A stretch of DNA of 64,000 nt. It comes from Pseudomonas sp. Tri1 (GTDB taxonomy: Bacteria > Pseudomonadota > Gammaproteobacteria > Pseudomonadales > Pseudomonadaceae). The notes below the pieces were generated by a model that was not told where the DNA came from, made no database searches, and saw only the letters and a list, made by a program, of their open reading frames with translations. The stretch covers positions 4,814,501 to 4,878,500 of the forward strand of contig NZ_CP072913.1 of assembly GCF_017968885.1 (NCBI RefSeq), in the 5' to 3' direction. The position numbers and the translations under genes are program-made. Shown in pieces: positions 17,172 to 33,255 of this stretch. The stretch's first letter is position 1; the number at the start of each line of letters is the position of its first letter.

Positions 17172-17347
17172 AGGAAAACTTCACGAAAAAAGATGAGGGC
17201 ATCATCGCAGGTCTGCGTCTCGTAGAGATCAAATCATAGCCAGCGCCGGAGAAATAGGCATGACATACGTAGGAATCACCATCGCCTCAATCCGGCAAGA
17301 CTCCCAGAATGGATCGTCTCACTGTTCACTGCTTAGCGAGGTCCACT

Positions 17348-18400
17348 ATGTACACTGCCATCGGATATGCCGCCCAGTCGGCCACCACTCCCCTCGCCCC
17401 CATGAAATTCGAACGCCGCAGCCCGCGAGCCGACGATGTGGCGATCGACATTCTCTACTGCGGCGTCTGCCATTCCGACATCCACCAGGCCCGTAATGAA
17501 TGGGGCATCGCCGTTTATCCGCTGATGCCCGGCCATGAGATCGTCGGCAAAGTTACCGCCGTCGGTGCGAATGTCACCCGCTATAAGATCGGCGACCTGG
17601 TGGGCGTTGGCTGCATGGTCGACTCCTGCCGCGAGTGCGAAGCCTGTCGCGCGGACCTGGAGCAATACTGCTACCAGGGCATGACCCAGACCTACGCCAG
17701 CCCGGACCGTATCAGCGGCGGCCACACCATGGGCGGTTACTCCAACAGCATCGTGGTCAGCGAGCACTTCGTGCTGCGCATCCCGGAAACCCTCGATCCG
17801 GCCGGTGCCGCGCCGATTCTCTGCGCCGGCATCACCACCTACTCGCCCCTCAAGCACTATGGCGTGAAGGCTGGCGACAAGGTTGGCGTACTGGGCATGG
17901 GCGGCCTCGGGCACATGGGTATCAAGTTCGCCAAGGCCATGGGCGCGGAAGTGACGCTGTTCACCCGCTCGGCGAGCAAGGCTGAGGAAGCCCGTCGCCA
18001 AGGTGCGGACCATGTGATCGTGTCTACCGACGCCGAGCAGATGGCCGCTGCCGCCGGACGTTTCAACTTCCTGCTGGACACCATTCCAGTGCAGCACGAC
18101 CTCAATCCCTACCTCGACACCTTGCGTTTTGATGGTGTGCACATCCTGGTGGGTCTGGTCGAACCGATTGATCCGCCGGTCCATGCCGCAAAACTGATCA
18201 TGGGCCGTCGGGTCCTGGCCGGTTCGCTGATCGGCGGTATCGCAGAAACCCAGGAAGTGCTGGATTTCTGCGCCGAACACAACATCAGCTGCGACATTGA
18301 AATGCTCGACATCCGTCAGATCAACGAGGCCTATAGCCGCATGATCGCCGGGGATGTGAAGTACCGCTTCGTCATCGACATGGCGACACTCAAGGCCTGA
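17348..18400 (+). CDS. Zinc-dependent NAD(P) alcohol dehydrogenase (YahK/CAD type)
   Basis: A 350-residue medium-chain dehydrogenase that reduces aldehydes, probably with NADPH. Catalytic zinc ligands include Cys41 (YCGVCHSDIH) and His63-Glu64 (GHE). Structural zinc is held by Cys94, 97, 100 and 108. The nucleotide site is GMGGLGHMG. The ATG at 17348 follows GAGG and starts the typical MYTAIGYAAQ; a longer frame upstream has no ribosome site. The gene converges with the IclR gene, 3 bp away. Confidence 0.93.
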   Translation: MYTAIGYAAQSATTPLAPMKFERRSPRADDVAIDILYCGVCHSDIHQARNEWGIAVYPLMPGHEIVGKVTAVGANVTRYKIGDLVGVGCMVDSCRECEACRADLEQYCYQGMTQTYASPDRISGGHTMGGYSNSIVVSEHFVLRIPETLDPAGAAPILCAGITTYSPLKHYGVKAGDKVGVLGMGGLGHMGIKFAKAMGAEVTLFTRSASKAEEARRQGADHVIVSTDAEQMAAAAGRFNFLLDTIPVQHDLNPYLDTLRFDGVHILVGLVEPIDPPVHAAKLIMGRRVLAGSLIGGIAETQEVLDFCAEHNISCDIEMLDIRQINEAYSRMIAGDVKYRFVIDMATLKA

Positions 18401-18403
18401 TCC

Positions 18404-19207
18404 TCAAACCTTGGCGCCAAGCTCCGCCGACAGCCGGGCTGTGACCCCTTTGACCAGGGGAATCAGCTCGGCCATTTTTTCCAGCGGCATGTATGGCACG
18501 GTGCTGGCGATACTGATACCGGCGACGATGCGCTTGCCGGCGTCACGGATCGGCGCCGCCACGCAACGAATCGACGGTTCGTTGTCTTCCAGATCGAAGG
18601 CATAGCCCCCCGCCACGTATTCCACCATCCGTTGCTGGAACTGTTCCCAGGATTGCTCCTGATGCTGGGGCCAGAACTGATTCTTCCCGCCGGCCGGCAG
18701 GCTGATTTCATACAGCCGCTTCCATTGTTCCTGCGTGTCATCGAGCATCAGCGCCTTGCCGATCCCGGTGCGCGCCAACGGCATGCGGTGGCCTACGCGC
18801 GAGCGCATCTCCGGGCCATTACGCCCCGGATTTTTCAGCAGGTACAAGACTTCGTCACCCTCGCGAATCGCCAGGTGAACGGTATCGCCGGTGAGTGCCG
18901 ACAGCTCGTCCAGATACGGCCCCGCCAGGCTCACCAGCGGCAGTTCTTCCCGGGCCTGGAAACCCAGTTCGATCAGCTTGGGCCCCAGCAGGTAACCCAC
19001 TTGCGGCACGACGCGCAGGTAACGTTCGTCCACCAGGCAACTGGCCAGGCGATGGGTAGTGCTGCGGGTGGTGCCGATCAACCGGGCAATTTCCTTCAAG
19101 TCACGGGCGCCGCTGGCGACCGCCTGGACCACACCCAGGCCACGCAGCAATGTCTGGGTGCCTGTGGGCGCTGCATCCTTGGAGATTTTGGGATCGTCTT
19201 GCTGCAT
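18404..19207 (-). CDS. IclR-family regulator of the galactonate operon
   Basis: A 267-residue IclR protein: N-terminal winged helix at about residues 20-80 (LKEIARLIGTTRSTTHRLAS) and a C-terminal effector domain. It is the last gene of dgoK-dgoA-dgoD-MFS-iclR, 59 bp after the transporter. It is a fair candidate for the protein that binds the TCCCA-N5-TGGGA operators before dgoK and before the SDR gene. That link is inference. Confidence 0.9.
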   Translation of the reverse strand: MQQDDPKISKDAAPTGTQTLLRGLGVVQAVASGARDLKEIARLIGTTRSTTHRLASCLVDERYLRVVPQVGYLLGPKLIELGFQAREELPLVSLAGPYLDELSALTGDTVHLAIREGDEVLYLLKNPGRNGPEMRSRVGHRMPLARTGIGKALMLDDTQEQWKRLYEISLPAGGKNQFWPQHQEQSWEQFQQRMVEYVAGGYAFDLEDNEPSIRCVAAPIRDAGKRIVAGISIASTVPYMPLEKMAELIPLVKGVTARLSAELGAKV

Positions 19208-19266: not shown

Positions 19267-20577
19267 CTACAACTCGATGCGCTCGACCTTCCCCACCAGC
19301 AGGATGTAGGACAGCGCGCCAATCAATGCCAGAACGGCGATATAAGTGATGGCTGGGGCAAACGAATCGCCGCTGGCGAGAAAGCCGATGACGATAGGCG
19401 TGGCGATGGCCGCCAGGTTACCGATGAAGTTGAACACCCCACCCGTCAATCCGAGCAGCCGTGCCGGTGCCAGGGTCGAAACCAATGACCAGGTGATCGA
19501 CGCCAGGCCATTGCCGAAGAACGCCAGGGCCAGGAAAGCGATCACCAACGGTGTCGATTCGACAAAGTTGGCACCGATGATCGACGTGGAAATCAACAGG
19601 CCACCAATGATCGGTAGCTTGCGAGCGAACCCCACCGTGGCACCGCGACGGATCAACCAGTCGGAGAAGAATCCGGAACACAACACGCCGACGAACGCTG
19701 CGAGAAACGGCAACGATGCCAACAGGCCGGACTTGATGAAGTCCATGCCGCGATATTTCACCAGGTAGGTCGGGAACCACGTCAGAAAAAACCACAGCGT
19801 GGAGTTGAGGCAGAATTGGCCGAGGTAAATGCCCCACAACTTGCGTTGAGTCAGGACGATCCCCAAGTCGGCCCAGCTGAATTTTGCCTTGGCCTTCGCG
19901 GTATCGGCCTGGATATCGACCAATCCGCCACCTTCGCGGATCAGTTCGATTTCAGCCGCATTGGCCCCTTTGAAGTCCCGTGGTTCGCGATACACCGCGT
20001 ACCAGATCAACGCCCAGATAATGCCTACCGCGCCCGTGGCGACAAACACCATGTGCCAGCCGAAGGCGTGTTGCAGCCAGGCCAATACCGGCGTCAGGAA
20101 GGCCAACCCGACGAACTGCCCGGAGGTGTAGAAACCGATGGCCGTGGCCCGCTCGCGCTCGGGAAACCAGGTGGTGACCACGCGGCTGTTGATCGGATAA
20201 GCCGGCGCTTCCAGGGCACCCACCGCCATGCGCAGCACGAACAGCGCGATGAAACTGGCGGCGAAGCCAAGCATCACCGTGGCCACCGACCACAGCAGCA
20301 GCGCCACGCTGTAAAGAATGCGCGGAGGCACCCGGTCCACCAACCAGCCACCAGGAATCTGCATGGCCGCGTAGGTCCAGCCGAACGCCGAGAAAATCAG
20401 CCCGACGTGGATCGGGTCGATGCCCAGGTCGCTGGTCAGCGCGGGGGCGGCAATCGAGAGGTTGCTGCGGTCCAGGTAATTGATCACCACGGTGATGAAC
20501 AGCAGGACCATGATGAAAAAACGCTTGCGGCTGGGCGTCACCAACGACGCTTGCGCGCTCAGGGTGTGCGCTTGCAT
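19267..20577 (-). CDS. MFS transporter, anion:cation symporter family (probable D-galactonate)
   Basis: A 436-residue major facilitator with about twelve membrane spans, opening with a cytoplasmic tail and VVINYLDRSNLSIAAPAL, the first helix pattern of the ACS family (DgoT, GudP, ExuT). The ACS family moves sugar acids with protons. Position beside dgoD, dgoA and dgoK points to galactonate. A REP pair separates it from dgoD. Confidence 0.9.
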   Translation of the reverse strand: MQAHTLSAQASLVTPSRKRFFIMVLLFITVVINYLDRSNLSIAAPALTSDLGIDPIHVGLIFSAFGWTYAAMQIPGGWLVDRVPPRILYSVALLLWSVATVMLGFAASFIALFVLRMAVGALEAPAYPINSRVVTTWFPERERATAIGFYTSGQFVGLAFLTPVLAWLQHAFGWHMVFVATGAVGIIWALIWYAVYREPRDFKGANAAEIELIREGGGLVDIQADTAKAKAKFSWADLGIVLTQRKLWGIYLGQFCLNSTLWFFLTWFPTYLVKYRGMDFIKSGLLASLPFLAAFVGVLCSGFFSDWLIRRGATVGFARKLPIIGGLLISTSIIGANFVESTPLVIAFLALAFFGNGLASITWSLVSTLAPARLLGLTGGVFNFIGNLAAIATPIVIGFLASGDSFAPAITYIAVLALIGALSYILLVGKVERIEL

Positions 20578-20755: not shown

Positions 20756-21904
20756 TCACCACTCGGCAAAACTACCATCGGCATGCCGCCAGATAGGGTT
20801 GCGCCAGCGATGGCCGATAGCCGCGCGTTCGATGACGTATTCCTCGTTGATCTCGATGCCCAGGCCCGGCCCATTGGGGATCTTCACGAAGCCTTTGTCG
20901 TAGTCGAACACCTGCGGATCCTTGATGTAATCCAGCAGGTCGTTGCTCTCGTTGTAGTGGATGCCCAGGCTCTGCTCCTGGATGAAGGCGTTGTAGCAGA
21001 CCGCATCCAGTTGCAGGCACGCTGCCAGGGCGATGGGGCCCAGTGGGCAGTGCAGCGCCAGCGCCACGTCGTAGGCCTCGGCCATGTTGGCGATCTTGCG
21101 GGTTTCGGTGATGCCACCGGCATGGGACGCATCCGGCTGGATGATGTCCACGTAACCTTCGCTGAGTACACGCTTGAAGTCCCAGCGCGAGAACAACCGC
21201 TCGCCCAGGGCAATCGGGGTGCTGGTCAGCGGCGCCAATTCCTTGAGGGCTTCGTAGTTTTCGCTGAGCACCGGTTCTTCGATGAACATCAGCTTGTAGG
21301 GGTCGAGTTCCTTCATCAACACCTTGGCCATCGGCTTGTGCACGCGGCCGTGGAAATCCACGCCAATGCCGACGTTCGGCCCCACCGCATCGCGCACCGC
21401 CGCGACGTTGGCCAGGGCCAGGTCGACCTTTTCAAAGGTGTCGAGAAATTGCAGCTCTTCGGTGCCGTTCATTTTCACTGCCGTGAAACCCCGCGCCACC
21501 GCCTCTTTCGCCGCCCGTGCGGTGTCCGCCGGCCGGTCGCCGCCGATCCACGAATACACTCGGATCTTGTCGCGCACCTGGCCACCGAGCAAATCGCTGA
21601 CCGACACACCCAAGGCCTTGCCCTTGATGTCCCACAACGCCTGGTCGATACCGGCCAGGGCACTCATGTGGATCGCCCCGCCCCGGTAGAAGCCGCCGCG
21701 ATACAACACCGTCCAGATATCTTCGATGTTGCGTGGGTCTTTGCCGATCAGGTAGTCGGACAGTTCCTCGACGGCCGCCGCCACCGTGTGGGCACGGCCT
21801 TCGACCACGGGTTCGCCCCAGCCGGTGACACCTTCGTCGGTTTCGACCTTGAGGAAGCACCAGCGCGGCGGAACGATAAACGTGGTCAGTTTGGTGATTT
21901 TCAT
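20756..21904 (-). CDS. dgoD: D-galactonate dehydratase
   Basis: A 382-residue enolase-superfamily enzyme that removes water from D-galactonate to give 2-keto-3-deoxygalactonate. Metal ligands Asp183 (VDFHG), Glu209 (FIEEP) and Glu235 (LGERL), and catalytic His185, fall at the same numbers as in E. coli DgoD. It is cytoplasmic and Mg-dependent. It follows dgoA by 49 bp. Confidence 0.95.
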
Positions 21905-21953: not shown

Positions 21954-22574
21954 TCAGTTCAAGGCATTCCACGCGGCCACGTAGGCCTTGGCGCGCACCG
22001 CCACCTCATCTGCCCTCAGGCCTGGCTTGAACAGCCCGGAACCGAGGCCGAAGCCCTTGACGCCAGCCTCGACGAACACCGCCATGTTGTCCGGGGTAAT
22101 CCCGCCCACCGGCACCAGCACGGTCCCGGCCGGCAGCACCGCGAGCCAGGCCTTGACCACCGCCGGGCCCATTTGCTCGGCCGGGAACATCTTCAGCACA
22201 TGGGCGCCTTCGGCCAGGGCGGCAAAAGCCTCGGTGGGCGTGGCGACGCCAGGGGACAGGTACAGCCCTGCCGCTTTCGCTGCCCGCAACACCTTCGGAT
22301 CGCTGTGGGGCATGACGATCACTTGTCCGCCAGCGGCTTTCACCTGCTCGACCTGTTCCGGCGTCAGCACGGTGCCGGCACCGATCAGGCAATCGGCGGG
22401 CAACGTACTGCGCAGGATGCGGATACTTTCGTACGGCTCGGGGGAATTGAGCGGTACTTCGATGACGCGAAATCCGGCGCTATAAAGGACTTCGCCGATA
22501 GCGGCGGCCTCTTCCGGGCGCAGACCACGCAAAATTGCGATCAGCCCATTGTGCGCCAGTGCTTGTGTGAGCAT
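21954..22574 (-). CDS. dgoA: 2-dehydro-3-deoxy-6-phosphogalactonate aldolase
   Basis: A 206-residue class I aldolase splitting 2-keto-3-deoxy-6-phosphogalactonate into pyruvate and glyceraldehyde-3-phosphate. The Schiff-base lysine is K128 in HVLKMFPAE. Other family motifs are GAGTVL and PVGGI. The ATG at 22574 follows GGAGG; an upstream extension overlapping dgoK is not used. It lies between dgoK and dgoD in the operon. Confidence 0.94.
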
Positions 22575-22593
22575 GTCAGACCTCCAGTCAGGT

Positions 22594-23577
22594 TTAACGC
22601 GATGCGGTGGAATCGAGCAGCCCGGCCGCCACGGCCAGTTGCCACAAACCACGTTCAGTGGCCTGTTCGACCATGGTCACCCGGGCGAAACCGCAGGCGT
22701 CGAGAGCCCGTTGATAACGGGCACAGAGTTGGGAATTGCCAATCAGCACCACTGCGGGCAAGTGGATGCTGTCGCGCCGCCGACGTTGCACGGTAGCCAG
22801 CGCTGTCAGCTCATGGCCGATCAACAGGCCAGAGAGGTAGTCAGCCTGGGCGCTGGCAGCCAGTTCGCCGGTCAAGCCCAGGCTGCGGGCGCTGAACACG
22901 GTGGACAACGGACCGATCTCGCCGCCCACCGACAACGCCACCTGCACGCCGCGATCGAAGGCCTGGCCGTCGAACGTCGCGCCGCGCTGCTGGGTGCGAC
23001 CGAGAATGCTGTGGTCACTGAGCACGGCGAAGATCTCGCCGGTCATGAAGGTGTCGAAATGCACGATGCAGCCGTCGGTCACTTCCACCCATTTCGAGTG
23101 GCTGCCGGGCAGGCCGATCAGCACCGCTCCGTCCGGCAGGTCGTGCAACGCACCGAGCACCTGGGTCTCTTCGCCGCGCATGACGTTGGGCAGCCGTGAA
23201 CGCTGGATTACGCCAGGCACGATGTGCACATCAACACCGCGAAGGCTGCGAACGGTTTGTAGGGAATGTCCGAGATCGGCGACGTTGGCGGGTGTGTCGC
23301 AGTAAGGCGCTTCGCGCCAGCCCTGGGCGCTGCCGACCATCCCGCAGGCTATGACGGGCAGGCCCGGCTGAGCATCGAGCCAATCGCCACAGGCCTCATC
23401 GAAGGCCAATTCGAAGCCGTCGATGCACACCTGGCCAGCCAGTGTTCGTGGCCCGGAGGGCAACTGCATGATCCCCGATGACAGCGAGCGCTGTTCGAGC
23501 ACCTCGCCCCCGGCGGCGAGTTTGTAAGCCCGTAATGAGGTGGTCCCCCAATCGAGCGCAATCAATTGCGCCTGCAT
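22594..23577 (-). CDS. dgoK: 2-dehydro-3-deoxygalactonokinase
   Basis: A 327-residue sugar kinase that phosphorylates 2-keto-3-deoxygalactonate with ATP. The N-terminal phosphate motif ALDWGTTSLRAY and IGLPGSHSKWVEV fit the family. The ATG at 23577 follows AGGTGA; a GTG nine bases upstream is also open. It is the first gene of the operon and is driven by the promoter at 23619-23676. Confidence 0.94.
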   Translation of the reverse strand: MQAQLIALDWGTTSLRAYKLAAGGEVLEQRSLSSGIMQLPSGPRTLAGQVCIDGFELAFDEACGDWLDAQPGLPVIACGMVGSAQGWREAPYCDTPANVADLGHSLQTVRSLRGVDVHIVPGVIQRSRLPNVMRGEETQVLGALHDLPDGAVLIGLPGSHSKWVEVTDGCIVHFDTFMTGEIFAVLSDHSILGRTQQRGATFDGQAFDRGVQVALSVGGEIGPLSTVFSARSLGLTGELAASAQADYLSGLLIGHELTALATVQRRRRDSIHLPAVVLIGNSQLCARYQRALDACGFARVTMVEQATERGLWQLAVAAGLLDSTASR

Positions 23578-23618
23578 CCGTTTCACCTGTTTTGTTTTTT
23601 GGCAGTGAGTGAGACGGA

Positions 23619-23676
23619 CTATAAACCCGGGCGCAGCATAATCTCAATATATAAATATGACTCCCATATATTGGGA
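23619..23676 (-). promoter_or_regulatory. dgoK promoter with TCCCA-N5-TGGGA operator
   Basis: Read on the minus strand: -35 TTGAGA (23642-23647), a 17-bp spacer, -10 TTATAG (23619-23624). A perfect inverted repeat TCCCATATATTGGGA (23662-23676) sits 14 bp upstream of the -35. A further half-site TCTCA overlaps the -35, exactly 20 bp from the first TCCCA arm. The same layout recurs before the SDR gene at 31541-31598. Confidence 0.75.
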
Positions 23677-23766
23677 TTTTATAACCTGATTGCAAAGCCC
23701 ATCGCCATTCATCCACGACCCTGCTACGTTTTCTGTCCGGACGTCTTAGAACTCAAGGAAACGTTT

Positions 23767-24399
23767 ATGGGACAACTGCTGAAAATCCTCGGTCGTACTT
23801 CTTCTATCAATGTCAGAAAAGTGCTGTGGACCTGCCAGGAACTGGAAATCCCCTACGAACGCGAAGACTGGGGCATCGGTTTTGCGTCGACCCATGACCC
23901 GAAGTTCCTGGCTCTCAACCCCAACGCCCAAGTGCCGGTGATCATCGATGAGAATGGCGTGCTCTGGGAGTCGAACACCATCTGTCGTTACCTGGTGGGC
24001 AAGCATGGGCGCAGCGATCTGCTGCCCGTCGAACCCGCCGCCCGGGCGCGCATCGAGCAGTGGATGGACTGGCAAGCCACGGAACTCAACCCGTCATGGG
24101 GTTACGCGTTCCACGCGCTGGTGCGCAAGAATCCGGATTTCCAGGACCCGCAGCGCATTGCCGCCGGCATCAAAGGCTGGAACGAGAAGATGGGTTTGCT
24201 GGAGCAGCAGTTGAACCGCACCGGCGCCTACGTGGCCGGTACGCAATTTTCCCTCGCCGATGTACTGATCGGCCTGTCCGTACACCGCTGGCGCCAGACG
24301 CCCATGGAGCGCCCGGACTATCCAGCGGTGGCCGCTTATTGCAAGCGGCTCGAACAGCGCCCCGGATTTATCGAGTACGCATCCAACGCATACTCATGA
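23767..24399 (+). CDS. Glutathione S-transferase
   Basis: A 210-residue GST. The N-terminal thioredoxin-like domain has GRTSSINVRKVLW, NPNAQVPVI and the glutathione-binding ESNTICRYL. The helical C-terminal domain ends FSLADVLIGLSVHRW. The ATG at 23767 follows AAGGAAA. The substrate is unknown; it has no obvious tie to the galactose genes around it. Confidence 0.9.
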   Translation: MGQLLKILGRTSSINVRKVLWTCQELEIPYEREDWGIGFASTHDPKFLALNPNAQVPVIIDENGVLWESNTICRYLVGKHGRSDLLPVEPAARARIEQWMDWQATELNPSWGYAFHALVRKNPDFQDPQRIAAGIKGWNEKMGLLEQQLNRTGAYVAGTQFSLADVLIGLSVHRWRQTPMERPDYPAVAAYCKRLEQRPGFIEYASNAYS

Positions 24400-24402
24400 A
24401 TT

Positions 24403-24885
24403 TCAATTGCCGTTAGCGAAATCCCGTAGCACCTTGCCGTCCATTCGGTAGCGCACCCACTCTTCCTGTGGTTGCGCGCCAAGGGATTTGTAGAACTCGA
24501 TCGCCGGCGTGTTCCAATCCAGCACGCTCCACTCGAAGCGACCGCAGTCGTTGTCGCAGGCGATCTTCGCCAGGTGGCGCAGCAGCGTCTTGCCTGCCCC
24601 GCCACCGCGCTGTTCAGGCGTGATGTACAGGTCTTCGAGGTACAGGCAGTTGCTGCCCAGCCAGGTGGAATAGCTGAAGAAAAACACTGCGAAACCGATC
24701 GGCACGCCATCACGCAGGCAGATCAGCCCGTGGGCGGTCGCGCCCTCGCTGAACAGGCTGCGCTCGATGTCGGCCACACTGGCGATGACTTCGTGGCGGG
24801 CCTTTTCGTAATCGGCCAACTCGGTGATGAAGGCAAGGATTTGAGGCGCATCGCTCGGTTGCGCAGGACGGATCTCGATGGACAT
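24403..24885 (-). CDS. GNAT-family N-acetyltransferase (diamine acetyltransferase-like)
   Basis: A 160-residue acetyltransferase with the acetyl-CoA loop YITPEQRGGGAGKTLL and the motif LYLEDLYI. The sequence resembles spermidine/spermine-type or other small-amine acetyltransferases, but the substrate cannot be fixed. It converges with the GST gene, 3 bp apart. Confidence 0.85.
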   Translation of the reverse strand: MSIEIRPAQPSDAPQILAFITELADYEKARHEVIASVADIERSLFSEGATAHGLICLRDGVPIGFAVFFFSYSTWLGSNCLYLEDLYITPEQRGGGAGKTLLRHLAKIACDNDCGRFEWSVLDWNTPAIEFYKSLGAQPQEEWVRYRMDGKVLRDFANGN

Positions 24886-24994
24886 GAACAGGCCTTGTAG
24901 CCAATTGAAAGCGCCATACTAAGCCGCCACAGGGCGCTCGTCACACATGAAAACGAACATCTCCATCGAAGTACCTGCAAACAAAGGATCTGTC

Positions 24995-25648
24995 ATGACC
25001 GCCGCCTTTGCGCCACTACAACCCGTCGCCGCTCAATTGTTACCCCATGCACTGGAGCCTTCGGAAGACGGCGCGCACGATCTTTCGCACCTGCAACGGG
25101 TCTGGCACAACGTGCGCACCCTCCAGGGTCATGAGGGCGGTGATCTGTCTATCCTGCTGGCGGCGACGTTGCTGCATGACTGCGTGGCAGTGGAAAAGAA
25201 CTCCCCCCTGCGCGCCCAGGCCTCTCGACTGGCGGCAGACAAGGCATCGACCCTGTTGTCGACGCTGAACTGGCCAGACGAAAAAATCAGTGCCGTCGCC
25301 CATGCCATCGAAGCTCACAGTTTCTCGGCCAACATTCCTGCCGTCACGCTCGAAGCAAAAATCCTCCAGGACGCCGACCGCCTCGACTCACTGGGCTTGC
25401 TCGGGGTGGCGCGGACATTCTACGTTGCCGGACGCATGGGCAGTGCGCTCTACGATCCCGAGGATCCGCAAGCCAAGTCGCGAGATTATGATGATCGTCG
25501 TTTCTGCCTCGATCATTTCCAGACCAAGTTGTTGCACCTGGCCGACGGTTTCCAGACCGTCACCGGGCAACACATGGCGCAGGTCCGTCACGAAAAGCTA
25601 AAAGGCTTCATGGAGCAATTCATCGAAGAAGCCGGACTCGACGCCTAG
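24995..25648 (+). CDS. HD-domain phosphohydrolase (YedJ-like)
   Basis: A 217-residue HD hydrolase. Metal residues include His32 (DLSHLQRV), His61-Asp62 (LLHDCVAV) and the Asp in LQDADRLDSLG. The ATG at 24995 follows AAGGA; an earlier in-frame start lacks one. These proteins hydrolyse phosphate esters, probably nucleotides. It is divergent from the GNAT gene. Confidence 0.88.
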   Translation: MTAAFAPLQPVAAQLLPHALEPSEDGAHDLSHLQRVWHNVRTLQGHEGGDLSILLAATLLHDCVAVEKNSPLRAQASRLAADKASTLLSTLNWPDEKISAVAHAIEAHSFSANIPAVTLEAKILQDADRLDSLGLLGVARTFYVAGRMGSALYDPEDPQAKSRDYDDRRFCLDHFQTKLLHLADGFQTVTGQHMAQVRHEKLKGFMEQFIEEAGLDA

Positions 25649-25731
25649 ACCATTCGTCGCGCCCGAGGCACCAACGCAAATCCAGCGCAGCCCAAGATCA
25701 GGCAAGCATTCTGAAAAATGGAGGCGACACC

Positions 25732-26073
25732 ATGATCACTTCAAGGCTGACTGCATTCACATTCGCCACGCTGCTGTCCTCGGTCGCTTTCGCGGCGTCT
25801 ACCGCTGGCACCGGGCCGACCGATCCGGTGCAGGCGCCCAACTCCCCCGCGCCCCAAGGCATGCCCAAGTTGAACACCGACGGTACCGGCGGCGGGCCGG
25901 ACAATAGCCAGCCACCTGCCACCGGCACTGATCCGCGTGTGCAAGGCAACGACATGGGTCGCCAGGGCGGAATGAATACGCCGGACTCCACGGCCCCCGA
26001 TAACGCCGACACCGGCGTGGGTTCGAAAACCACGACCGGTGGTTCGGGTTCGGAAGGTAACGCCAGCCAGTAA
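25732..26073 (+). CDS. Secreted Gly/Pro/Thr-rich hypothetical protein
   Basis: A 113-residue protein with a signal peptide (MITSRLTAFTFATLLSSVAFA). The mature part is low in hydrophobic residues and rich in Gly, Pro, Thr, Asp and Asn (GTGGGPDNSQPPATGTD), so probably disordered in the periplasm. GGAGG precedes the start. Function unknown. The next gene follows by 32 bp, so they may form an operon. Confidence 0.75.
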   Translation: MITSRLTAFTFATLLSSVAFAASTAGTGPTDPVQAPNSPAPQGMPKLNTDGTGGGPDNSQPPATGTDPRVQGNDMGRQGGMNTPDSTAPDNADTGVGSKTTTGGSGSEGNASQ

Positions 26074-26105
26074 CCGCTGCTCAGACACTTGAGGAGGAAG
26101 ATCCC

Positions 26106-26486
26106 ATGCCTCGTGGAAGCAAAGACAAATACACCACCGAGCAAAAGCGCAAAGCCCAACACATCGAAGAGAGTTACGAGAAGAAGGGCCTGTCCGAGGA
26201 CAAGGCCGAGGCTCGCGCGTGGGCCACGGTGAACAAGCAATCCGGCGGCGGTGAGCGCTCCGGCGGTTCGGGAAAGGCAAAACCGGCCGCAGAGAAGAAA
26301 ACCGACCGCAAGGAATCGGCCCGCCGCGCAGCCAAGACCCGTGAGGGTCATCCGCGCACCAGCAAGGCCTCCCATGGGGCCCAGACCGTGGACAGCCTGA
26401 TGAAGGAGGCCCGGGCGAAAAATATTCCCGGGCGCTCGAAGATGCGCAAGCAGGAGTTGGTCGAAGCGTTGCGCAAGGCGGGGTGA
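26106..26486 (+). CDS. Basic protein with Rho-N/SAP-like C-terminal motif
   Basis: A 126-residue, strongly basic protein. The N-terminal part (YTTEQKRKAQHIEESYEKKG) resembles small stress-related ChaB/KGG-like or plasmid-stabilisation proteins. A Gly/Lys-rich linker follows. The C-terminus (SLMKEARAKNIPGRSKMRKQ) matches the helix-extended-helix of Rho N-terminal domains, which bind nucleic acid. GAGGAGG precedes the start. Its role is not known. Confidence 0.75.
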   Translation: MPRGSKDKYTTEQKRKAQHIEESYEKKGLSEDKAEARAWATVNKQSGGGERSGGSGKAKPAAEKKTDRKESARRAAKTREGHPRTSKASHGAQTVDSLMKEARAKNIPGRSKMRKQELVEALRKAG

Positions 26487-26506
26487 TCGTTGGCGTCAGG
26501 GAGGAC

Positions 26507-26737
26507 GCCATCGCGAGCAAGCTCGCTCCCACATGGGTCTGTGCTGTGTCGAGGTTCTGGACTCTGACACAAAGACCTGTGGGAGCGAGCTTGCTCGCGA
26601 TGGCGGTGGGTCAGGTTAGAAGGTATTGAATGCACTGACGCCTCGCGAGCAGGCTCGCTCCCACAGTGGATCTTCGGTGTGCCGAAATTTTGCGGCTGAC
26701 ACAAAAACCTGTGGGAGCGAGCCTGCTCGCGATGGCG
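26507..26737. repeat. Cluster of four REP elements
   Basis: Four REP cores in alternating orientation at about 26507-26532, 26576-26604, 26641-26666 and 26708-26737. The first pair carries GAGCAAGCTC and the second GAGCAGGCTC, so they are two paired insertions rather than one expansion. They lie between the plus-strand Rho-N gene and the convergent araH gene. Confidence 0.92.
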
Positions 26738-26765
26738 GTAGATCAGTCGCCAGCGATCTCGGTTT

Positions 26766-27734
26766 TCAGCGTTGTTTCAAGCGGTCGATCACCACCGCCA
26801 GCAGCAGGATCGAGCCGCGAATGACGTATTGGTAGAAGGTGTCGATGTTCTTCAGGTTCATCGCATTTTCGATGATCGCCAGAATCAGCACGCCCGCAAT
26901 GACATGACGAATCATGCCGATGCCACCGCTCAACGACACCCCGCCCAGCACACAGGCCGAGATCACGGTCAGCTCAAAGCCCTGGCCGATCATCGGCTGG
27001 CCCGAGGTCATGCGTGACGCCAGGATGACCCCGGCCAAGGCGCCGATCAAGCCATGCACGGCGAAGATGATGATCTTGGTGCGATCAACGTTCACGCCTG
27101 CCAACAACGCCGCTTCCTGGTTGCCACCGATGGCCATGGTGTTGCGCCCGTAGGTGGTGTAGTTCAGCAGCCAGCCGAAAAACAGAAAGCAAACGATGGT
27201 GATCAGAATCGGTACCGGCACGCCAAACAATTGGCCGTTGCCGAACACGAAGAACGATTCCTGCGACACCCCCACCGCCTTGCCGTTGGCAAAGATGTAG
27301 GCCAGGCCCCGGACGATCTGCATCGTCGCCAGGGTGGTGATCAAGGCGTTGACCCGCAGCTTGGCGATGACGATGCCGTTGATCAGGCCGACGATCAGCC
27401 CCATCGCCAGCGCCGCGCTGACGCCGAGGAATACGCTGTTGGTGTCGCGCATCACCACCGCCGCGACCACGCCGGCACAGGCAATCACCGAACCGACCGA
27501 CAAGTCGAAGTGCCCGGACGCCAGGCAATACAACATGGTGCACGCGGCGATGCCGGTGGTGGAAATCGCCAGGCCCAGGCCGCGCATGTTCAACGGCGAC
27601 AGGAAGTTGTCGATCATCAAGGTGCAGAGCACGAAGATACCGATGGCCGCCAACAGCATGACCCAGTCATCCAGGAAACGGCGCAGGTCCAGGGGTTTGC
27701 GTGCCGTTGGCAGTGCATTGTTTTGAATGGTCAT
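26766..27734 (-). CDS. araH: L-arabinose/D-galactose ABC transporter permease
   Basis: A 322-residue inner-membrane permease of the ribose/arabinose (CUT2) family, with about eight to ten hydrophobic spans. ASRMTSGQPMIGQGFEL and SACVLGGVSLSGGIG are the conserved coupling and permease motifs. It ends the araF-araG-araH set, 10 bp after araG. Confidence 0.92.
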   Translation of the reverse strand: MTIQNNALPTARKPLDLRRFLDDWVMLLAAIGIFVLCTLMIDNFLSPLNMRGLGLAISTTGIAACTMLYCLASGHFDLSVGSVIACAGVVAAVVMRDTNSVFLGVSAALAMGLIVGLINGIVIAKLRVNALITTLATMQIVRGLAYIFANGKAVGVSQESFFVFGNGQLFGVPVPILITIVCFLFFGWLLNYTTYGRNTMAIGGNQEAALLAGVNVDRTKIIIFAVHGLIGALAGVILASRMTSGQPMIGQGFELTVISACVLGGVSLSGGIGMIRHVIAGVLILAIIENAMNLKNIDTFYQYVIRGSILLLAVVIDRLKQR

Positions 27735-27744
27735 GATTTACCTC

Positions 27745-29289
27745 TCAGTTCGCCGCGTCGGCAACGCGTTGGCGCGGTAGCGCCAGTTGCAGCAGGTTGG
27801 ATTCGTTGGCCTGGTCGCGCGGCAACTCGCCGCGCATGGCCCCTTCGCACAGCACCAGGATTCGGTCGGAAATGCCCATCACTTCCATCAGGTCGCTGGA
27901 CACCACAATCACCGCGATGCCGTCGGCCGCCAGGTTGTGGATAATCTGGTAGATCTCGGCCTTGGCGCCGATGTCGATGCCACGGGTCGGTTCGTCCAGC
28001 AGCAGGACTTTCATCGGCATCGACAGCCAGCGACCGAGAATCGCCTTCTGCTGATTGCCGCCGGACAGGTACATGATTTTCTGGCTGGCCGCCGGGGTCT
28101 TCACTTTCAGCGACTTGATCTGCTTGTCGGCATTGCCCCGCTCCCAGTCGCCGCGCAGCAGGCAGCCGAGCGCGGAATGAGCCGGACGGGCACTGATGTT
28201 GATGTTCTCGCCCACGCTGCCCAACGGGATGATGCCTTCCTTCTTGCGATCTTCCGGGCAGAGCAGCACGCCAGCGGCGATGGCATCCCGTGGCGAACGC
28301 AGTTTCAGTTCCTTACCGTGCAGCACGAGGCTTCCCTCGCTCTGGCGCTCCAGACCACTGAGCAAGCGAAACAACTCGGTACGACCGGCACCGACCAGCC
28401 CGAACAAACCGAGGATCTCGCCCTTGTGCACCTGGAAACTCACCGGCTCGCGCAAGCCCGGTCCCAGCAGGCCCTTCACTTGCAGCGCCACATCACCGCG
28501 CTCCCGAGGGCGGTAATCATAGATGTCCTGGATATCGCGACCGACCATGCACGTGACCAACTGATCGTGGGTCAGCTCGCTCATGTTCTCGAAGGTCCGG
28601 ACATAACGACCGTCCTTGAATACCGTCACCGCGTTACAGATACGGAACACTTCTTCCATGCGGTGGCTGACGTACAGCACCACTTTGCCCTCGTCTCGCA
28701 AGCGGGCAATGATCGCCATCAAGCGGTCAATTTCCCGGGCCGACAGACTACTGGTGGGTTCGTCGAAAGCAATGACGTGGGCGCCACGGGACAAAGCCTT
28801 GGCGATTTCCACCAATTGGCGCTGGCCGAGGGACAGGCGACCGACTTTTTCCTGCGGGTCGATTTCGTCGGCCAGGCCTTTGAGCAGTGTCAGCGCCTGC
28901 TGGCGCAGCACGCCACGATTGACCAGGCCGAAACGTGCCGGCAAATGGCCGAGAAACAGGTTTTCCGCGACGGTCATTTCCGGCACCAGGTGCAGCTCCT
29001 GGTGAATCACCGCGACACCGCTGGCGATGCTATCAGCGGTGCCTTTGAACGCCATCGTCTGCTCGCCGATCTGCAAGTCGCCGCTGCTCGGGATGTAGGC
29101 GCCACCCAATATCTTGAGCAGCGTAGACTTGCCGGCGCCGTTTTCACCCATCAAGGCATGGACCTGCCCCGGATGGGCAACGAAACTGATATTGGCCAGC
29201 GCCTGCACGCCGGGAAAGGACTTGCCGATCCCGTTGAATCGCAAGCTGCCACCGATGTTGTGTTGCCGTGTCGCTGTTTGCGCTTGCAT
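27745..29289 (-). CDS. araG: L-arabinose/D-galactose ABC transporter ATPase
   Basis: A 514-residue protein with two fused nucleotide-binding domains. The first has Walker A GENGAGKST and signature LSLGQRQ. The second has the degenerate Walker A GLVGAGRTE usual in CUT2 ATPases, with signature LSGGNQQK. The ATG at 29289 follows GAGG at good spacing; a GTG at 29295 is also open. It couples ATP hydrolysis to sugar import with AraH and AraF. Confidence 0.93.
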   Translation of the reverse strand: MQAQTATRQHNIGGSLRFNGIGKSFPGVQALANISFVAHPGQVHALMGENGAGKSTLLKILGGAYIPSSGDLQIGEQTMAFKGTADSIASGVAVIHQELHLVPEMTVAENLFLGHLPARFGLVNRGVLRQQALTLLKGLADEIDPQEKVGRLSLGQRQLVEIAKALSRGAHVIAFDEPTSSLSAREIDRLMAIIARLRDEGKVVLYVSHRMEEVFRICNAVTVFKDGRYVRTFENMSELTHDQLVTCMVGRDIQDIYDYRPRERGDVALQVKGLLGPGLREPVSFQVHKGEILGLFGLVGAGRTELFRLLSGLERQSEGSLVLHGKELKLRSPRDAIAAGVLLCPEDRKKEGIIPLGSVGENINISARPAHSALGCLLRGDWERGNADKQIKSLKVKTPAASQKIMYLSGGNQQKAILGRWLSMPMKVLLLDEPTRGIDIGAKAEIYQIIHNLAADGIAVIVVSSDLMEVMGISDRILVLCEGAMRGELPRDQANESNLLQLALPRQRVADAAN

Positions 29290-29365
29290 AACCACCTCGA
29301 ACTCACAGAGATCAAGCGATCCCGGTCACTCAACTGACCGGGGCCGCTCTTGAATCAACCGACCG

Positions 29366-30370
29366 TCAATTCCACAGGCCGATCTTTTCCAGCTCCTGCT
29401 TGAAGTTCTCCCGGGTGATCAGCGTCACCTCGTCCATGGCGGTGTACTTCGGCGGTTCCTTGCCGGTGGTGATCCACTCGTACATCATTTCGGCGGTCTT
29501 GTAGCCTTCGATGTGCGGGCTTGGCAGCATCGAACCGAAGAAGCCGCTTTTCGGCTTTTTCAGCTCACCGATGGCGTCGGTACCGTTGATACCAATGCCG
29601 ATCACGTTGTCGGCCTTGAAGCCGGCCGCTTCGGTGGCACGTACGCCGCCCAGCACGGTGTTGTCATTCATGCCGCCGATGATCAGGTTTTTCGCGGTGC
29701 TTGGCAGTTTCACCAAAGCCGAGTTGGTGGAGTCCATGCTGCCGGGTACGTCGAGGGTCTTCAGGGCCGCGAAGAGGATGTGGTCTTTCGGGATGCCGGC
29801 CTCCTCAAGGGACTTGACCGAACCATCCGTGCGCTTCTTGCCAGTGTCCAGTTCGTTGTAGGTGTTGATCACCGCATAGGTTTCTTTCCAATCCCAGTTA
29901 CGCTTCTTCGCTTCAGCAGCCATGGCAGCGCCCTGCTTCTGGCCTACCTCGAAAGCGGCCATGCCCAGGTACGGTACGTCTTCCATGAACTTGCCGTTGG
30001 CGTCGACGAAACGGTCGTCCACGGCAATCACCTTGAGATCGTTGAGCTTGGCCTTGGCCATGATGGCCGGGCCGAGGGACACGTCTGGCGGGCAGATCAC
30101 AAAGCCCTTGGCACCGTTGGCGGCAAGGCTGTCGATGGCCGAGAGGGTTTTCTCGCCGTCGGGCACGGCGATCTTGATCAATTCGAAGCCTTTGTCCTTG
30201 CTCGCCTTCTCGGCGAACGCCCATTCGGTCTGGAACCAGGGCTCCTCGGCCTGCTTGACCAGGAAACCGATTTTTACGGGAGCAGCCGCCAGCAAGCTGC
30301 TGCTGAGGCTGACCGCGGTAACCGCCAGGGCGGCACGGCACAGGGAACGGATCCCACGACGATGATTCAT
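29366..30370 (-). CDS. araF: L-arabinose/D-galactose-binding periplasmic protein
   Basis: A 334-residue periplasmic binding protein. The signal peptide ends near SSSLLAA. The mature start VKIGFLVKQAEEPWFQTEW and later MNDNTVLGGVRATE and GSMLPSPH closely follow E. coli AraF, which binds L-arabinose, D-galactose and D-fucose. The ATG at 30370 follows AAGGAGT. It leads araFGH; a GntR-type operator lies about 120 bp upstream. Confidence 0.93.
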   Translation of the reverse strand: MNHRRGIRSLCRAALAVTAVSLSSSLLAAAPVKIGFLVKQAEEPWFQTEWAFAEKASKDKGFELIKIAVPDGEKTLSAIDSLAANGAKGFVICPPDVSLGPAIMAKAKLNDLKVIAVDDRFVDANGKFMEDVPYLGMAAFEVGQKQGAAMAAEAKKRNWDWKETYAVINTYNELDTGKKRTDGSVKSLEEAGIPKDHILFAALKTLDVPGSMDSTNSALVKLPSTAKNLIIGGMNDNTVLGGVRATEAAGFKADNVIGIGINGTDAIGELKKPKSGFFGSMLPSPHIEGYKTAEMMYEWITTGKEPPKYTAMDEVTLITRENFKQELEKIGLWN

Positions 30371-30491
30371 AGTTGACTCCTTGTTTTTTTTATTGAAAGC
30401 CAAACGTCCAGGGTCTGCTCCACCATCGGTGGAAATGCGCAGGCTGGGCGGTCAAATCAAGTTGCTACACAGCATAGGCTCAAATAGTCAT

Positions 30492-30505
30492 ATCGTATGA
30501 TGATT
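30492..30505. promoter_or_regulatory. Candidate GntR operator upstream of araF
   Basis: The sequence ATCGTATGATGATT, with partial dyad symmetry (TCAT-ATCGT-ATGA), lies between the SDR gene and araF. The same 14 bases occur inverted before the GntR regulator gene (33256-33269). A shared regulator is likely; the binding protein is inferred, not shown. Confidence 0.55.
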
Positions 30506-30544
30506 GGATTACAGGCGAAGTTTCCGACTGTAATCCAGGAATAT

Positions 30545-31363
30545 TCAGTCGTGGTACATGACCGAACGTCCCCCATCGATGGTGATGCATGAGGCATTGA
30601 TAAACGGTGCTTCGTCGCTGGCCAGGAACACGGCCGTCATTGCCACTTCGATCGGTTGCCCGATACGCCGTGGCGGGTGCATATCCAGCGCACGCTGGCG
30701 TTCGGCATGCGGATCGGCAAAGCCGTTCCAGTAGTCGACGTTCAGTTGGGTTTCGATATAGCCCGGCGCGATGGCGTTTACCCGCACCCCCTTGGGCGCG
30801 TATTCGATGCCCAAGGCGCGGGTCAGGCCGAGCAGGCCATGCTTGGCCACCGGGTAAGGGAAACAGCCGGGAATAATGTGGGAAGAGTGAACCGACGCGA
30901 TATTGATGATGCTGCCCACGCCCTGCTCGATCATCTGCGGTAATACAGCCTTGCAACCGTACCAGGCGCCATCCAGGTCGATGGCGAAACAGCGACGCCA
31001 GTCTTCTTCGGACATTTCCAGCGGGTCACGGAACACGTTGACGCCGGCGCAATTCACCAGCACATCGATCCGACCGTGCAATTCGATGGCATGACGAGCC
31101 ATGGCGTGCAGGTCCTGCTGCTTCGACACATCGGTTTTCAGCGCTTGTACATCCGCCCCGCGTTCACGCCAGTGGGCAGCGACGGCTTCGACCTTCTGGG
31201 CCTGAATGTCACTGATCACCAGCCGTGCCTGTTGCGAAGCGAACGCGGCGACGATGGCCTCGCCAATGCCCTGGGCTGCACCGGTCAACAGCACGACCTT
31301 GTTTTTCAGCCGTTCGCCCTTCGGTGGCTCGGGCACCGGCGGCAAGACAAGAGGTTCAGCCAT
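30545..31363 (-). CDS. Short-chain dehydrogenase, probable aldose 1-dehydrogenase
   Basis: A 272-residue SDR oxidoreductase. The cofactor motif TGAAQGIG is at residues 27-34, NCAGVN at about 104-109, and the catalytic Tyr170-Lys174 (YPVAK) follows a Ser-rich strand (NIASVHSS). It lies between an AraF-type transporter and a lactonase gene, so the likely step is D-galactose (or L-arabinose) to the aldonolactone with NAD(P). The context drives this call; other SDR substrates are possible. AGGAGT precedes the start. Confidence 0.82.
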   Translation of the reverse strand: MAEPLVLPPVPEPPKGERLKNKVVLLTGAAQGIGEAIVAAFASQQARLVISDIQAQKVEAVAAHWRERGADVQALKTDVSKQQDLHAMARHAIELHGRIDVLVNCAGVNVFRDPLEMSEEDWRRCFAIDLDGAWYGCKAVLPQMIEQGVGSIINIASVHSSHIIPGCFPYPVAKHGLLGLTRALGIEYAPKGVRVNAIAPGYIETQLNVDYWNGFADPHAERQRALDMHPPRRIGQPIEVAMTAVFLASDEAPFINASCITIDGGRSVMYHD

Positions 31364-31487
31364 GGATCAGGACTCCTGTTCGCAGGCACGGCAAAAACCG
31401 GGCATCCAGGGAAGCCCGGCCAAAAGGCGCTGCAGAAAACAGTGAGTCGCGTACGCCACCGGGGCGTACGGAGGAGGATCGTTGCAT
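31356..31487 (-). other. Leader ORF (43 codons) with a dgoK-like start site
   Basis: The sequence before this ATG, CAGGTGAAGCG, nearly equals the dgoK ribosome site (CAGGTGAAACGG), and the whole promoter upstream matches that of dgoK. The frame runs 43 codons, opening MQRSSSVRPGG, and ends 8 bp inside the SDR gene, whose own start lies within it. It is either a relic of a duplicated promoter plus start codon or a short upstream ORF that tunes SDR translation. Confidence 0.4.
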
Positions 31488-31540
31488 CGCTTCACCTGTT
31501 TTGTTTTTTTAGTGTGAGTGCGTATTGCTGATGGAGCCGA

Positions 31541-31598
31541 CTATAAACCCGACCGCCGAACAATCTCAATATATATATTTACATCCCATATTTTGGGA
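31541..31598 (-). promoter_or_regulatory. SDR-operon promoter with TCCCA-N5-TGGGA operator
   Basis: Read on the minus strand: -35 TTGAGA (31564-31569), a 17-bp spacer, -10 TTATAG (31541-31546). The operator TCCCATATTTTGGGA (31584-31598) is 14 bp upstream of the -35, with an extra TCTCA half-site overlapping the -35. Every spacing equals that of the dgoK promoter. The operator starts 2 bp after the SMP-30 stop codon. Confidence 0.75.
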
Positions 31599-31599
31599 T

Positions 31600-32475
31600 T
31601 TAGCCAGCGAATCGAGTACAAGCCACACCGGGCACGTCGACCCGCATTGACAGCACTGCACCGTCCAGCGGATGGCCCAGCGGACTCGCCGCGCTGGTGA
31701 TGTACAGCGTCCTGAGGTCTTCACCGCCGAACACACAGCTGGTCGGGCGGCTGACAGGTAACTCGATCACCCGGTCAACATGGCCGTCCGGATGCAACCG
31801 CAGCAGGCAACTGCCATCCCAGCGCGCGTTCCAGATGTAACCCCGGGCATCCATCGCTGAACCGTCCGGTCCACCGCGCAGATGAGGGCCAAACCAGACT
31901 TCCGCGGGAGCCAGGCTGCCATCAGCGTGAATGAAGTGCCGATACAGCGTCCCATCGAGGCTGTCGCCGAAGTACACCTGGGTGTTATCGGGGCTCCACA
32001 ACAGCGTGTTGGGAATGCCCAACTCACGCAGCAACGGCATGACCCGACCATCGGCGCCAACGCGAAACAGACCACCGGAGCGCCGCTCGATGGGCAAGTC
32101 TTCTGCGTTTTCACCAATATTGTTCTGCATGGTGCCAAGCCAGAGCTGACCCAAGGCATCGCAACGGGCCTCGTTGGGGCGATTGCCTGGCTGGGGATCG
32201 GCCATGCAGAACAGCGTCAGCCGCGGTTCCAGGCCCGGTGAATCCAGATCCAGCCGGTACACGCCACTGCTCAGGGTCACCAGCGCGTCGCCACGCTGAG
32301 TCGGGATAAAGGCGGAAACGTGCTCGGGCATCTGCCAGATATCCACGTTGGCGCCGATCAGCCGCAGTGCCTGCCGGCCGGCGATATCAACCCAATACAA
32401 TGCCTGGGTCGGCTCGTCCCAGAAGGGCCCCTCGCCCAATTTCGCCCGGTGTTCCGTCACAGCCGTCCACTTCAT
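31600..32475 (-). CDS. SMP-30/gluconolactonase-family lactonase
   Basis: A 291-residue six-bladed propeller enzyme. The metal-binding glutamate lies in KLGEGPFWDEP (about residue 15), and later PNEARCDALGQLWLGTM, SPDNTQVYFGDSLDG and SAMDARGYIWNARW match the family. It should open the sugar lactone made by the neighbouring SDR enzyme (galactonolactone or arabinonolactone). It overlaps the GntR gene by 4 bp, so the two are translationally coupled. Confidence 0.9.
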   Translation of the reverse strand: MKWTAVTEHRAKLGEGPFWDEPTQALYWVDIAGRQALRLIGANVDIWQMPEHVSAFIPTQRGDALVTLSSGVYRLDLDSPGLEPRLTLFCMADPQPGNRPNEARCDALGQLWLGTMQNNIGENAEDLPIERRSGGLFRVGADGRVMPLLRELGIPNTLLWSPDNTQVYFGDSLDGTLYRHFIHADGSLAPAEVWFGPHLRGGPDGSAMDARGYIWNARWDGSCLLRLHPDGHVDRVIELPVSRPTSCVFGGEDLRTLYITSAASPLGHPLDGAVLSMRVDVPGVACTRFAG

Positions 32476-33218
32476 TGAAACCTCCTGTTCCCGGCTTGCC
32501 CGGCAGCGTCTGTTCGACCGGCCATGACATCGGGGTAAAAGCGTTTGATCGCCAGGTCGGCGTTATCGATCAGGGTCATGCAGGCCCAGACACCCCGCGC
32601 CGCGTCGCGGGCAGCGATGGCGTCGGCGATATCCTTGTGGATCGGCAAGGTGCGGCGCAGTTCATCCGGATCGGCGGCCGACACCTCGAACGACACCGCC
32701 AGCAGTGCGCCCAGGGCCGGAACCATTTGTTCGATGAATTGATTATGGCTGGCGGCAAGGATGCACTCGTGGAAAAACTGATCGGCACGGTTGTAATCGG
32801 TGCCGCTGTCCACGGCCCGTTCCAGTGCATGGTAGGCCAGGCGGATCGCCTGCACCTGATCAGCCGTGGCCCGCTCACAGGCCCAGCGCACCGCCATCGG
32901 TTCGATGGTGCGACGCAGGTCCAGCAGGTCATCGACAAAGTTTTCCGGCAGGCCACTGCGCGACAGCCAGCCAACGACCTGGGGGTCGAACAGATTCCAG
33001 CGTCGCACCGGCAATACTCGCGTACCGACTTTCGGCCCGACTTCCAGCATGCCCTTGGCGACCAGCGTCTTGATCGCCTCGCGAATCACCGTGCGGCTGA
33101 CCCCCAGTTGCTCACCCAAGTCGGCCTCGACCTTGATGGTCTGCCCAGGCTTGACCTGGCCGGCGGCAATCCAGCCCCCCAGCCAATCGACGGTCGACGC
33201 ATGAAAACTGCTGGACAT
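32472..33218 (-). CDS. GntR-family regulator, FadR subfamily (DgoR-like)
   Basis: A 248-residue regulator: winged helix at about residues 10-75 (EADLGEQLGVSRTVIREAIK) and a helical FCD effector domain. The linker RRWNLFDPQVVGW parallels the WNYLD region of E. coli DgoR, the galactonate repressor. It probably senses an intermediate of galactose or arabinose breakdown. A repeat shared with the araF upstream region (33256-33269) suggests it represses itself and araFGH. The ATG at 33218 is preferred; a GTG at 33224 is also open. Confidence 0.9.
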   Translation of the reverse strand: MSSSFHASTVDWLGGWIAAGQVKPGQTIKVEADLGEQLGVSRTVIREAIKTLVAKGMLEVGPKVGTRVLPVRRWNLFDPQVVGWLSRSGLPENFVDDLLDLRRTIEPMAVRWACERATADQVQAIRLAYHALERAVDSGTDYNRADQFFHECILAASHNQFIEQMVPALGALLAVSFEVSAADPDELRRTLPIHKDIADAIAARDAARGVWACMTLIDNADLAIKRFYPDVMAGRTDAAGQAGNRRFQ

Positions 33219-33255
33219 GAACACCCCGGGGCCACTCTTATTGGAGGCCCACGCT

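Follow-up and report, generated by a model that had tools for sequence, protein, structure and literature searches.

Two galactose-pathway operons of Pseudomonas sp. Tri1 with a shared operator-promoter module, probably of the IclR type

The genome of Pseudomonas sp. Tri1 carries two operons with genes for galactose use, one beginning with dgoK and the other with a dehydrogenase gene of the short-chain dehydrogenase/reductase (SDR) family, and nearly the same noncoding DNA stands before both. The question raised by this locus is which protein would recognize both copies, and whether it would repress or activate the genes behind them. The window analyzed is the whole stretch of 64,000 nucleotides (contig NZ_CP072913.1, positions 4,814,501 to 4,878,500 of the forward strand); coordinates are positions within it, and its features are collected in Table 1. 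The answer favored here, with a probability of about 0.58, is that an IclR-family protein would bind a shared tandem operator, repress both operons and be released by an intermediate of the pathway.

Twin operator-promoter modules

Both modules lie on the minus strand and consist of the palindrome TCCCA-N5-TGGGA, a spacer of 15 nucleotides and a third box, TGAGA, followed by the promoter (pattern search of the window). The boxes occupy positions 23676-23672, 23666-23662 and 23646-23642 before dgoK, and 31598-31594, 31588-31584 and 31568-31564 before the SDR gene. In both modules the -35 element follows the palindrome after exactly 14 bp and the third box is offset by exactly 20 bp, and the shared elements and spacings described in an earlier reading of this DNA (the sequence-only reading) are present where it placed them. 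The SDR operator starts 1 bp past the stop codon of an SGL-family gene. A search of the 6.7-Mb genome for TCCCA-N5-TGGGA-N15-TGAGA, the check proposed in that reading, found just 2 exact matches, both of them the window modules; with up to 2 mismatches there was 1 further match in the genome, and a reversed control pattern also gave 2 matches.

The -35 element TTGAGA stands as first read, but the -10 element, previously placed at TTATAG after a 17-bp spacer, reads better as TATAGT after 18 bp, because TATAGT is found in 142 of 157 distinct sites whereas the first T of TTATAG is T in 138 of them and C in 17. These 157 sites were found by the right arm of the palindrome and the third box, which makes those positions conserved through the design of the search, and the left arm was free to vary. 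A promoter consensus scan of 9.7 kb listed only the two module promoters, which does not exceed the chance expectation of 2.9. The likeness of the modules extends past the -10 element through a shared stretch, AAACAAAACAGGTGAA, that includes a ribosome-binding site, and then ATGCA; an alignment of the two downstream of the -10 element scores 21, versus a mean of 3.9 and a maximum of 14 in 2000 shuffles.

Conservation in Pseudomonas and target genes

The exact operator pattern is present in 111 of 298 Pseudomonas genomes, and the reversed-pattern control in 0 of the genome table. A pattern of right arm, third box and -10 element with up to 3 mismatches matches 189 of the 298, never more than twice in a genome, and its control matches a single genome (G200). 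Outside Pseudomonas nothing rises above background: of 293 genomes of the order, 7 gave a match, 5 of them being Pseudomonas and the other 2 carrying 3 mismatches, and the reversed control matched 3 of the same 293.

The genes behind the module are those of sugar metabolism. Among the matches listed (80 of 120 stretches, in named genomes, all titled Pseudomonas), the next gene is dgoK in 41, the SDR gene in 32 and iclR in 4, and 3 loci ended too early to show it. The sequence-only reading would have been undone by a motif scattered at random with no link to sugar genes; instead, matches throughout the genus precede dgoK, the SDR gene or iclR. In 20 regions chosen from genomes with a single match, the module is directly upstream of dgoK-dgoA-dgoD in all 20, with the dgoK match below cut-off in 2 (L106, L112).

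The operons served by the module vary. Some genomes have a single long operon with the dgo, SDR and araFGH genes (L094, L098, L110); in others (L114, L116, L118, L121-L123) the genes are divided between two distant operons, of which the SDR-araFGH one closes with iclR and has a module 1-5 positions off the scanning consensus. In L114 and L116 the module is found on both of these separated operons, one of which ends in iclR. The module stands directly upstream of iclR in three P. oryzihabitans genomes and one uncultured Pseudomonas (L134, L170, L211, L208). Because near-identical control regions recur throughout the genus together with one IclR-family gene, the two operons most likely form one galactose regulon. 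The earlier proposal that a single regulator serves both is supported by this conservation of the module, by its target genes and by its co-occurrence with the IclR gene.

An IclR-family protein as the probable regulator

Two proteins of the window had been named as candidates, one of the IclR and one of the GntR family, and the evidence upholds the former. The IclR protein (PF09339 and PF01614, both above gathering scores) has relatives among solved IclR structures, and an orthologue is found in 186 of the 189 genomes with the module; of the three without, G080 is 86% complete and its match is split between two frames, G206 is in about 1150 contigs and G223 is 73% complete. An IclR hit occurs without a module match in four genomes: in G001, G147 and G164 the hits are much weaker (E about 1e-75, versus 1e-109 or better for the other hits listed), and G259 (L015) possesses the exact operator with a shifted -10 element. 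In G080 (region L112) not only does the iclR match run over two frames, but the major facilitator superfamily (MFS) transporter match is in two pieces, which indicates damaged genes or assembly.

The fit of the operator to the published IclR consensus, WTT-11-AAW, is a test independent of gene linkage. The palindrome (site 1) scores a mean of 13.8 of 17 over the 157 distinct sites, versus 8.3 in shuffles; the shuffles preserve only base composition, and the sites are not independent. In 146 of the 157 this offset gives the best fit. Over the same sites, a second site at +20 reaches 12.5 of 17, versus 8.3 in shuffles. A comparative study of IclR operators (PMC8222616) predicts tandem sites with centers 18-22 nt apart for 94 orthologous groups and reports three-box sites for 32, and this literature supports reading the module as a tandem pair of IclR-type sites 20 bp apart, in a tetramer-like arrangement.

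Several points weigh against the IclR protein. Positions 3 and 15 of the operator are C and G, where the IclR consensus has T and A; site 2 has a poor, degenerate left arm; and the nearest named NCBIfam models of the protein, BhcR and KdgR, are far below their cut-offs. The co-occurrence evidence is weakened by linkage, since dgoD also tracks the module: of 109 module-negative genomes, 108 lack it (80 of 80 in a run without a positive control, 28 of 29 in a run with one). With these points counted, the IclR-family protein is still, on comparative grounds, very probably the regulator of both modules.

The alternative is that the GntR protein, which has an FCD domain, binds both modules. In the window's lineage its operon is directly upstream of the SDR module, and the module is present in all 102 genomes with a GntR orthologue; however, 87 of the 189 module genomes lack such an orthologue (102 of 189 have it). 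The FadR-type consensus of GntR regulators, TNGTNNNACNA, fits the 157 sites no better than it fits shuffles (3.5 of 7, versus 4.0), and two regions with a more distant GntR orthologue (L124, L133) have the GntR, SGL and araFGH genes but no module. The GntR protein is disfavored by both co-occurrence and consensus fit, and its control of the modules is very improbable. In L124 and L133 the GntR and SGL genes stand directly before araFGH, without an SDR gene or a module match. In other relatives, among them L087, L088 and L089, a stop codon interrupts the GntR match, perhaps only at its variable C-terminal end.

A literature search, judged by titles and the abstracts shown, found no paper on an IclR regulator of Pseudomonas galactose genes, although the supplementary regulogs of PMC8222616 may already predict one.

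Repression or activation

According to the model favored here, two dimers of the IclR protein would sit on each module, at tandem sites 20 bp apart. The first of these is the TCCCA/TGGGA palindrome centered near -58; site 2 is made up of a degenerate left arm and a right arm, TTGAGAT, lying on the -35 element. Without inducer the protein would cover the -35 element of a near-consensus promoter and repress both operons, and iclR, by its place in the dgoK operon, would also repress itself. A pathway intermediate, most plausibly 2-keto-3-deoxygalactonate, would free the operator, and galactose uptake and oxidation (SDR-araFGH) would be induced jointly with galactonate breakdown (dgoKAD and the transporter).

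Repression is the likelier mode, because the promoter matches the consensus at 10 of 12 positions, the third box lies on the -35 element, and dgoKAD transcribed from its native promoter is usable in P. putida KT2440 on galactose, according to PMC6927180. From the operator center near -57, the sequence-only reading had suggested either an activator or a tetramer bridging the sites; the tandem, tetramer-like arrangement is retained, but activation is disfavored by these observations. The authors of that study describe KT2440 as no native galactose user and presume the pathway to be unregulated there; with araAB added to the dgoKAD operon and a transporter supplied separately, the strain grew at up to 0.371 per hour (PMC6927180). 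The growth of KT2440 on galactose with native-promoter dgoKAD suggests that the dgo promoter may work without a dedicated activator. Within the fetched DNA of P. rhodesiae (L184) and P. orientalis (L175), which we regard as near relatives of SBW25, there is no match to iclR behind the dgo genes, so the dgoKAD construct in KT2440 was probably without iclR.

Activation by the same protein, from about -58 and with the -35 contact forming part of an activating complex with RNA polymerase, is possible but on balance unlikely. PobR, PcaU and MhpR are IclR-family activators, and the MhpR site is near -58. The evidence of co-occurrence and consensus serves an activator equally, as does the operator center near -58, and activators of this family with an extra half-site are described in PMC8222616. 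Set against this are a promoter near consensus unaided, a third box that overlaps the -35 element and the growth of KT2440 with native-promoter dgoKAD (PMC6927180); moreover, an activator encoded last in the operon that it controls would depend on some basal expression at the outset. Repression has its own difficulties: besides the suitability of the center for an activator, the KT2440 dgoKAD strain grew slowly and after a 52-h lag (PMC6927180), and the identity of the inducer is a matter of pathway logic only.

Origin of the two copies

The simplest reading of the likeness, which extends over the 5' leader as far as the ribosome-binding site and start codon, is that the promoter and start region were copied when an operon split or was duplicated, and that both copies may have been kept by selection. 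The SDR gene of the SDR-araFGH-iclR operons starts with ATGCAGGCACAACCG (MQAQP), and dgoK starts with MQAQL. Were the likeness mere common descent of a duplicated promoter, with no regulator recognizing both copies today, the similarity up to the start codon and the resemblance of MQAQP to MQAQL would be accounted for. Duplication is indeed likely, yet common descent leaves unexplained why the operator boxes are near-invariant over many species while the spacers drift (the pattern searched for included the right arm and third box but not the left arm), and it is most unlikely to be the whole explanation. In the classification of leaders, 34 of 180 distinct modules were unclassified, many of them visibly of the SDR or iclR kind.

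The leader of the SDR operon

The SDR gene of the window's lineage has a leader of its own, with 84-160 nt between the copied start codon and the SDR start (43 distinct leaders, 2 more without a recognized ribosome-binding site being excluded). The open reading frame that begins at the copied start overlaps the SDR start by 8 nt in 31 of the 43, ends 3 nt before it in 11 and ends earlier in 1. Within it, a terminator-like hairpin with a T tract is the best hairpin of that type in 37 of 44 distinct sequences, some of which are without such a leader; another hairpin is best in 2, 2 lack it and 3 have no T tract. As judged from these sequences the hairpin is conserved in relatives. Its CCGG-CCGG core is kept, without two-sided compensatory changes, in 25 of 25 aligned leaders (chosen from those with the hairpin, plus L075), and the window leader folds better than 200 of 200 shuffles (z -3.2). 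A simple terminator scan did not list the hairpin, and a scan for RNA families found two weak matches to microRNA models, below gathering scores and away from the modules. A second perfect hairpin, CGTACGCC-CCGGT-GGCGTACG (31450-31470, minus strand), near the start of the upstream open reading frame, is not kept in relatives whose leaders are shorter or of another kind.

SDR-araFGH might conceivably be gated twice in this lineage, first by the shared IclR operator and then by a translation-dependent leader hairpin, although this is doubtful. The upstream open reading frame would be translated from its dgoK-like ribosome-binding site, and ribosomes on the leader would decide whether transcription continues. 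If this is true, the two operons would share one switch and differ in a second step, dependent on translation, that was added once the promoter had been copied.

Other accounts of the leader fared poorly. Selection on the leader peptide is unsupported: the 43 leaders have no third-codon-position excess, and the +1 frame is open too in 39 of them. Taken as a longer remnant of the dgoK coding sequence, the leader exceeds shuffles in one length class alone, that of 156 nt (P 0.018, 6 leaders); the 159-nt class is marginal (P 0.05, 2 leaders), and the other five do not exceed them. The hairpin is no genome repeat, having one copy in the genome at up to 3 mismatches.

Genes of the two operons

The gene families found support the galactose-pathway content ascribed to both operons in the sequence-only reading. 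The dgo operon, the SDR-araFGH operon and the SGL gene fit the oxidative De Ley-Doudoroff route of galactose breakdown, which is described for pseudomonads in PMC6927180. The SDR enzyme is proposed to be a galactose/arabinose dehydrogenase. A zinc-type alcohol dehydrogenase gene (17309-18400, plus strand) is convergent to iclR and adjoins it in both operon arrangements.

Table 1. Features of the two operons, their control regions and neighboring genes in the window
Feature	Positions	Strand	Basis
dgoK operon operator	23642..23676	-	palindrome TCCCA-N5-TGGGA and third box TGAGA; exact match, consensus fit
SDR operon operator	31564..31598	-	palindrome TCCCA-N5-TGGGA and third box TGAGA; exact match
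dgoK operon promoter	23618..23647	-	TTGAGA, 18 bp, TATAGT; 10/12 consensus matches; conserved in relatives
SDR operon promoter	31540..31569	-	TTGAGA, 18 bp, TATAGT; 10/12 consensus matches
dgoK ribosome-binding site AGGTGA	23583..23588	-	inside shared AAACAAAACAGGTGAA stretch 23582-23597
dgoK, 2-keto-3-deoxygalactonokinase	22594..23577	-	Pfam DGOK; start ATG at 23577
dgoA, KDPG/KHG-type aldolase	21954..22577	-	Pfam PF01081
dgoD, galactonate dehydratase	20756..21904	-	NCBIfam NF010624 above cut-off
MFS transporter, D-galactonate subfamily	19267..20577	-	TIGR00893 above cut-off
IclR-family regulator, last gene of dgoK operon	18404..19207	-	Pfam IclR_C (PF01614), HTH_IclR (PF09339); co-occurrence
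SDR dehydrogenase, PRK07063 type	30545..31363	-	NCBIfam NF005469 above cut-off
ABC transporter sugar-binding protein, araF position	29366..30403	-	Pfam Peripla_BP_1; no NCBIfam equivalog above cut-off
araG, ABC transporter ATPase	27745..29295	-	NCBIfam NF008442 above cut-off
araH, ABC transporter permease	26766..27734	-	NCBIfam NF008441 above cut-off
SGL-family lactonase-like gene, 1 bp upstream of SDR operator	31600..32475	-	Pfam SGL
GntR-family (FCD) regulator, disfavored candidate	32472..33224	-	Pfam GntR, FCD
Upstream open reading frame, 43 codons (predicted)	31356..31487	-	behind AGGTGA 31492-31497; stop overlaps SDR start
Terminator-like hairpin with T5 tract, inside upstream open reading frame	31393..31419	-	folding, conservation in relatives

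Significance and comparison with known systems

For galactose use in many Pseudomonas species the analysis points to a specific regulator and operator that can be tested, and it may offer engineers a galactose-responsive promoter. The operator and promoter have stayed nearly unchanged while the operons that they serve were joined, split and moved apart, which makes them a case for how regulons hold together.

In E. coli, DgoR, a GntR-family protein, controls the dgo genes; the system in the window is similar in its control of dgoKAD-type genes but has a probable regulator of a different family, and its GntR protein does not track the module. E. coli KdgR is an IclR-family repressor that responds to 2-keto-3-deoxygluconate, chemically similar to the pathway intermediate here, and its model is among the best NCBIfam matches of the window IclR protein; at 104 bits, far under the equivalog cut-off of 275 bits, the window protein is not KdgR itself. 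Group 1 (WTT-11-AAW) IclR operators, as given by Suvorova and Gelfand 2021 (PMC8222616), resemble the module in most of the consensus WTTYCRYW3RYGRAAW, in having a second site (at 20 nt here, within their range of 18-22) and in sugar-gene targets, whereas the module has C at position 3, G at position 15 and a degenerate left arm in its second site. The three-box operators of PcaU, PobR and HmgR (PMC8222616) likewise combine a palindrome with an extra direct half-site, but in the module the third box falls on the -35 element, 20 bp from the right arm, and the targets are sugar genes. The module is a clear new example of a known IclR-type switch rather than a new kind of switch.

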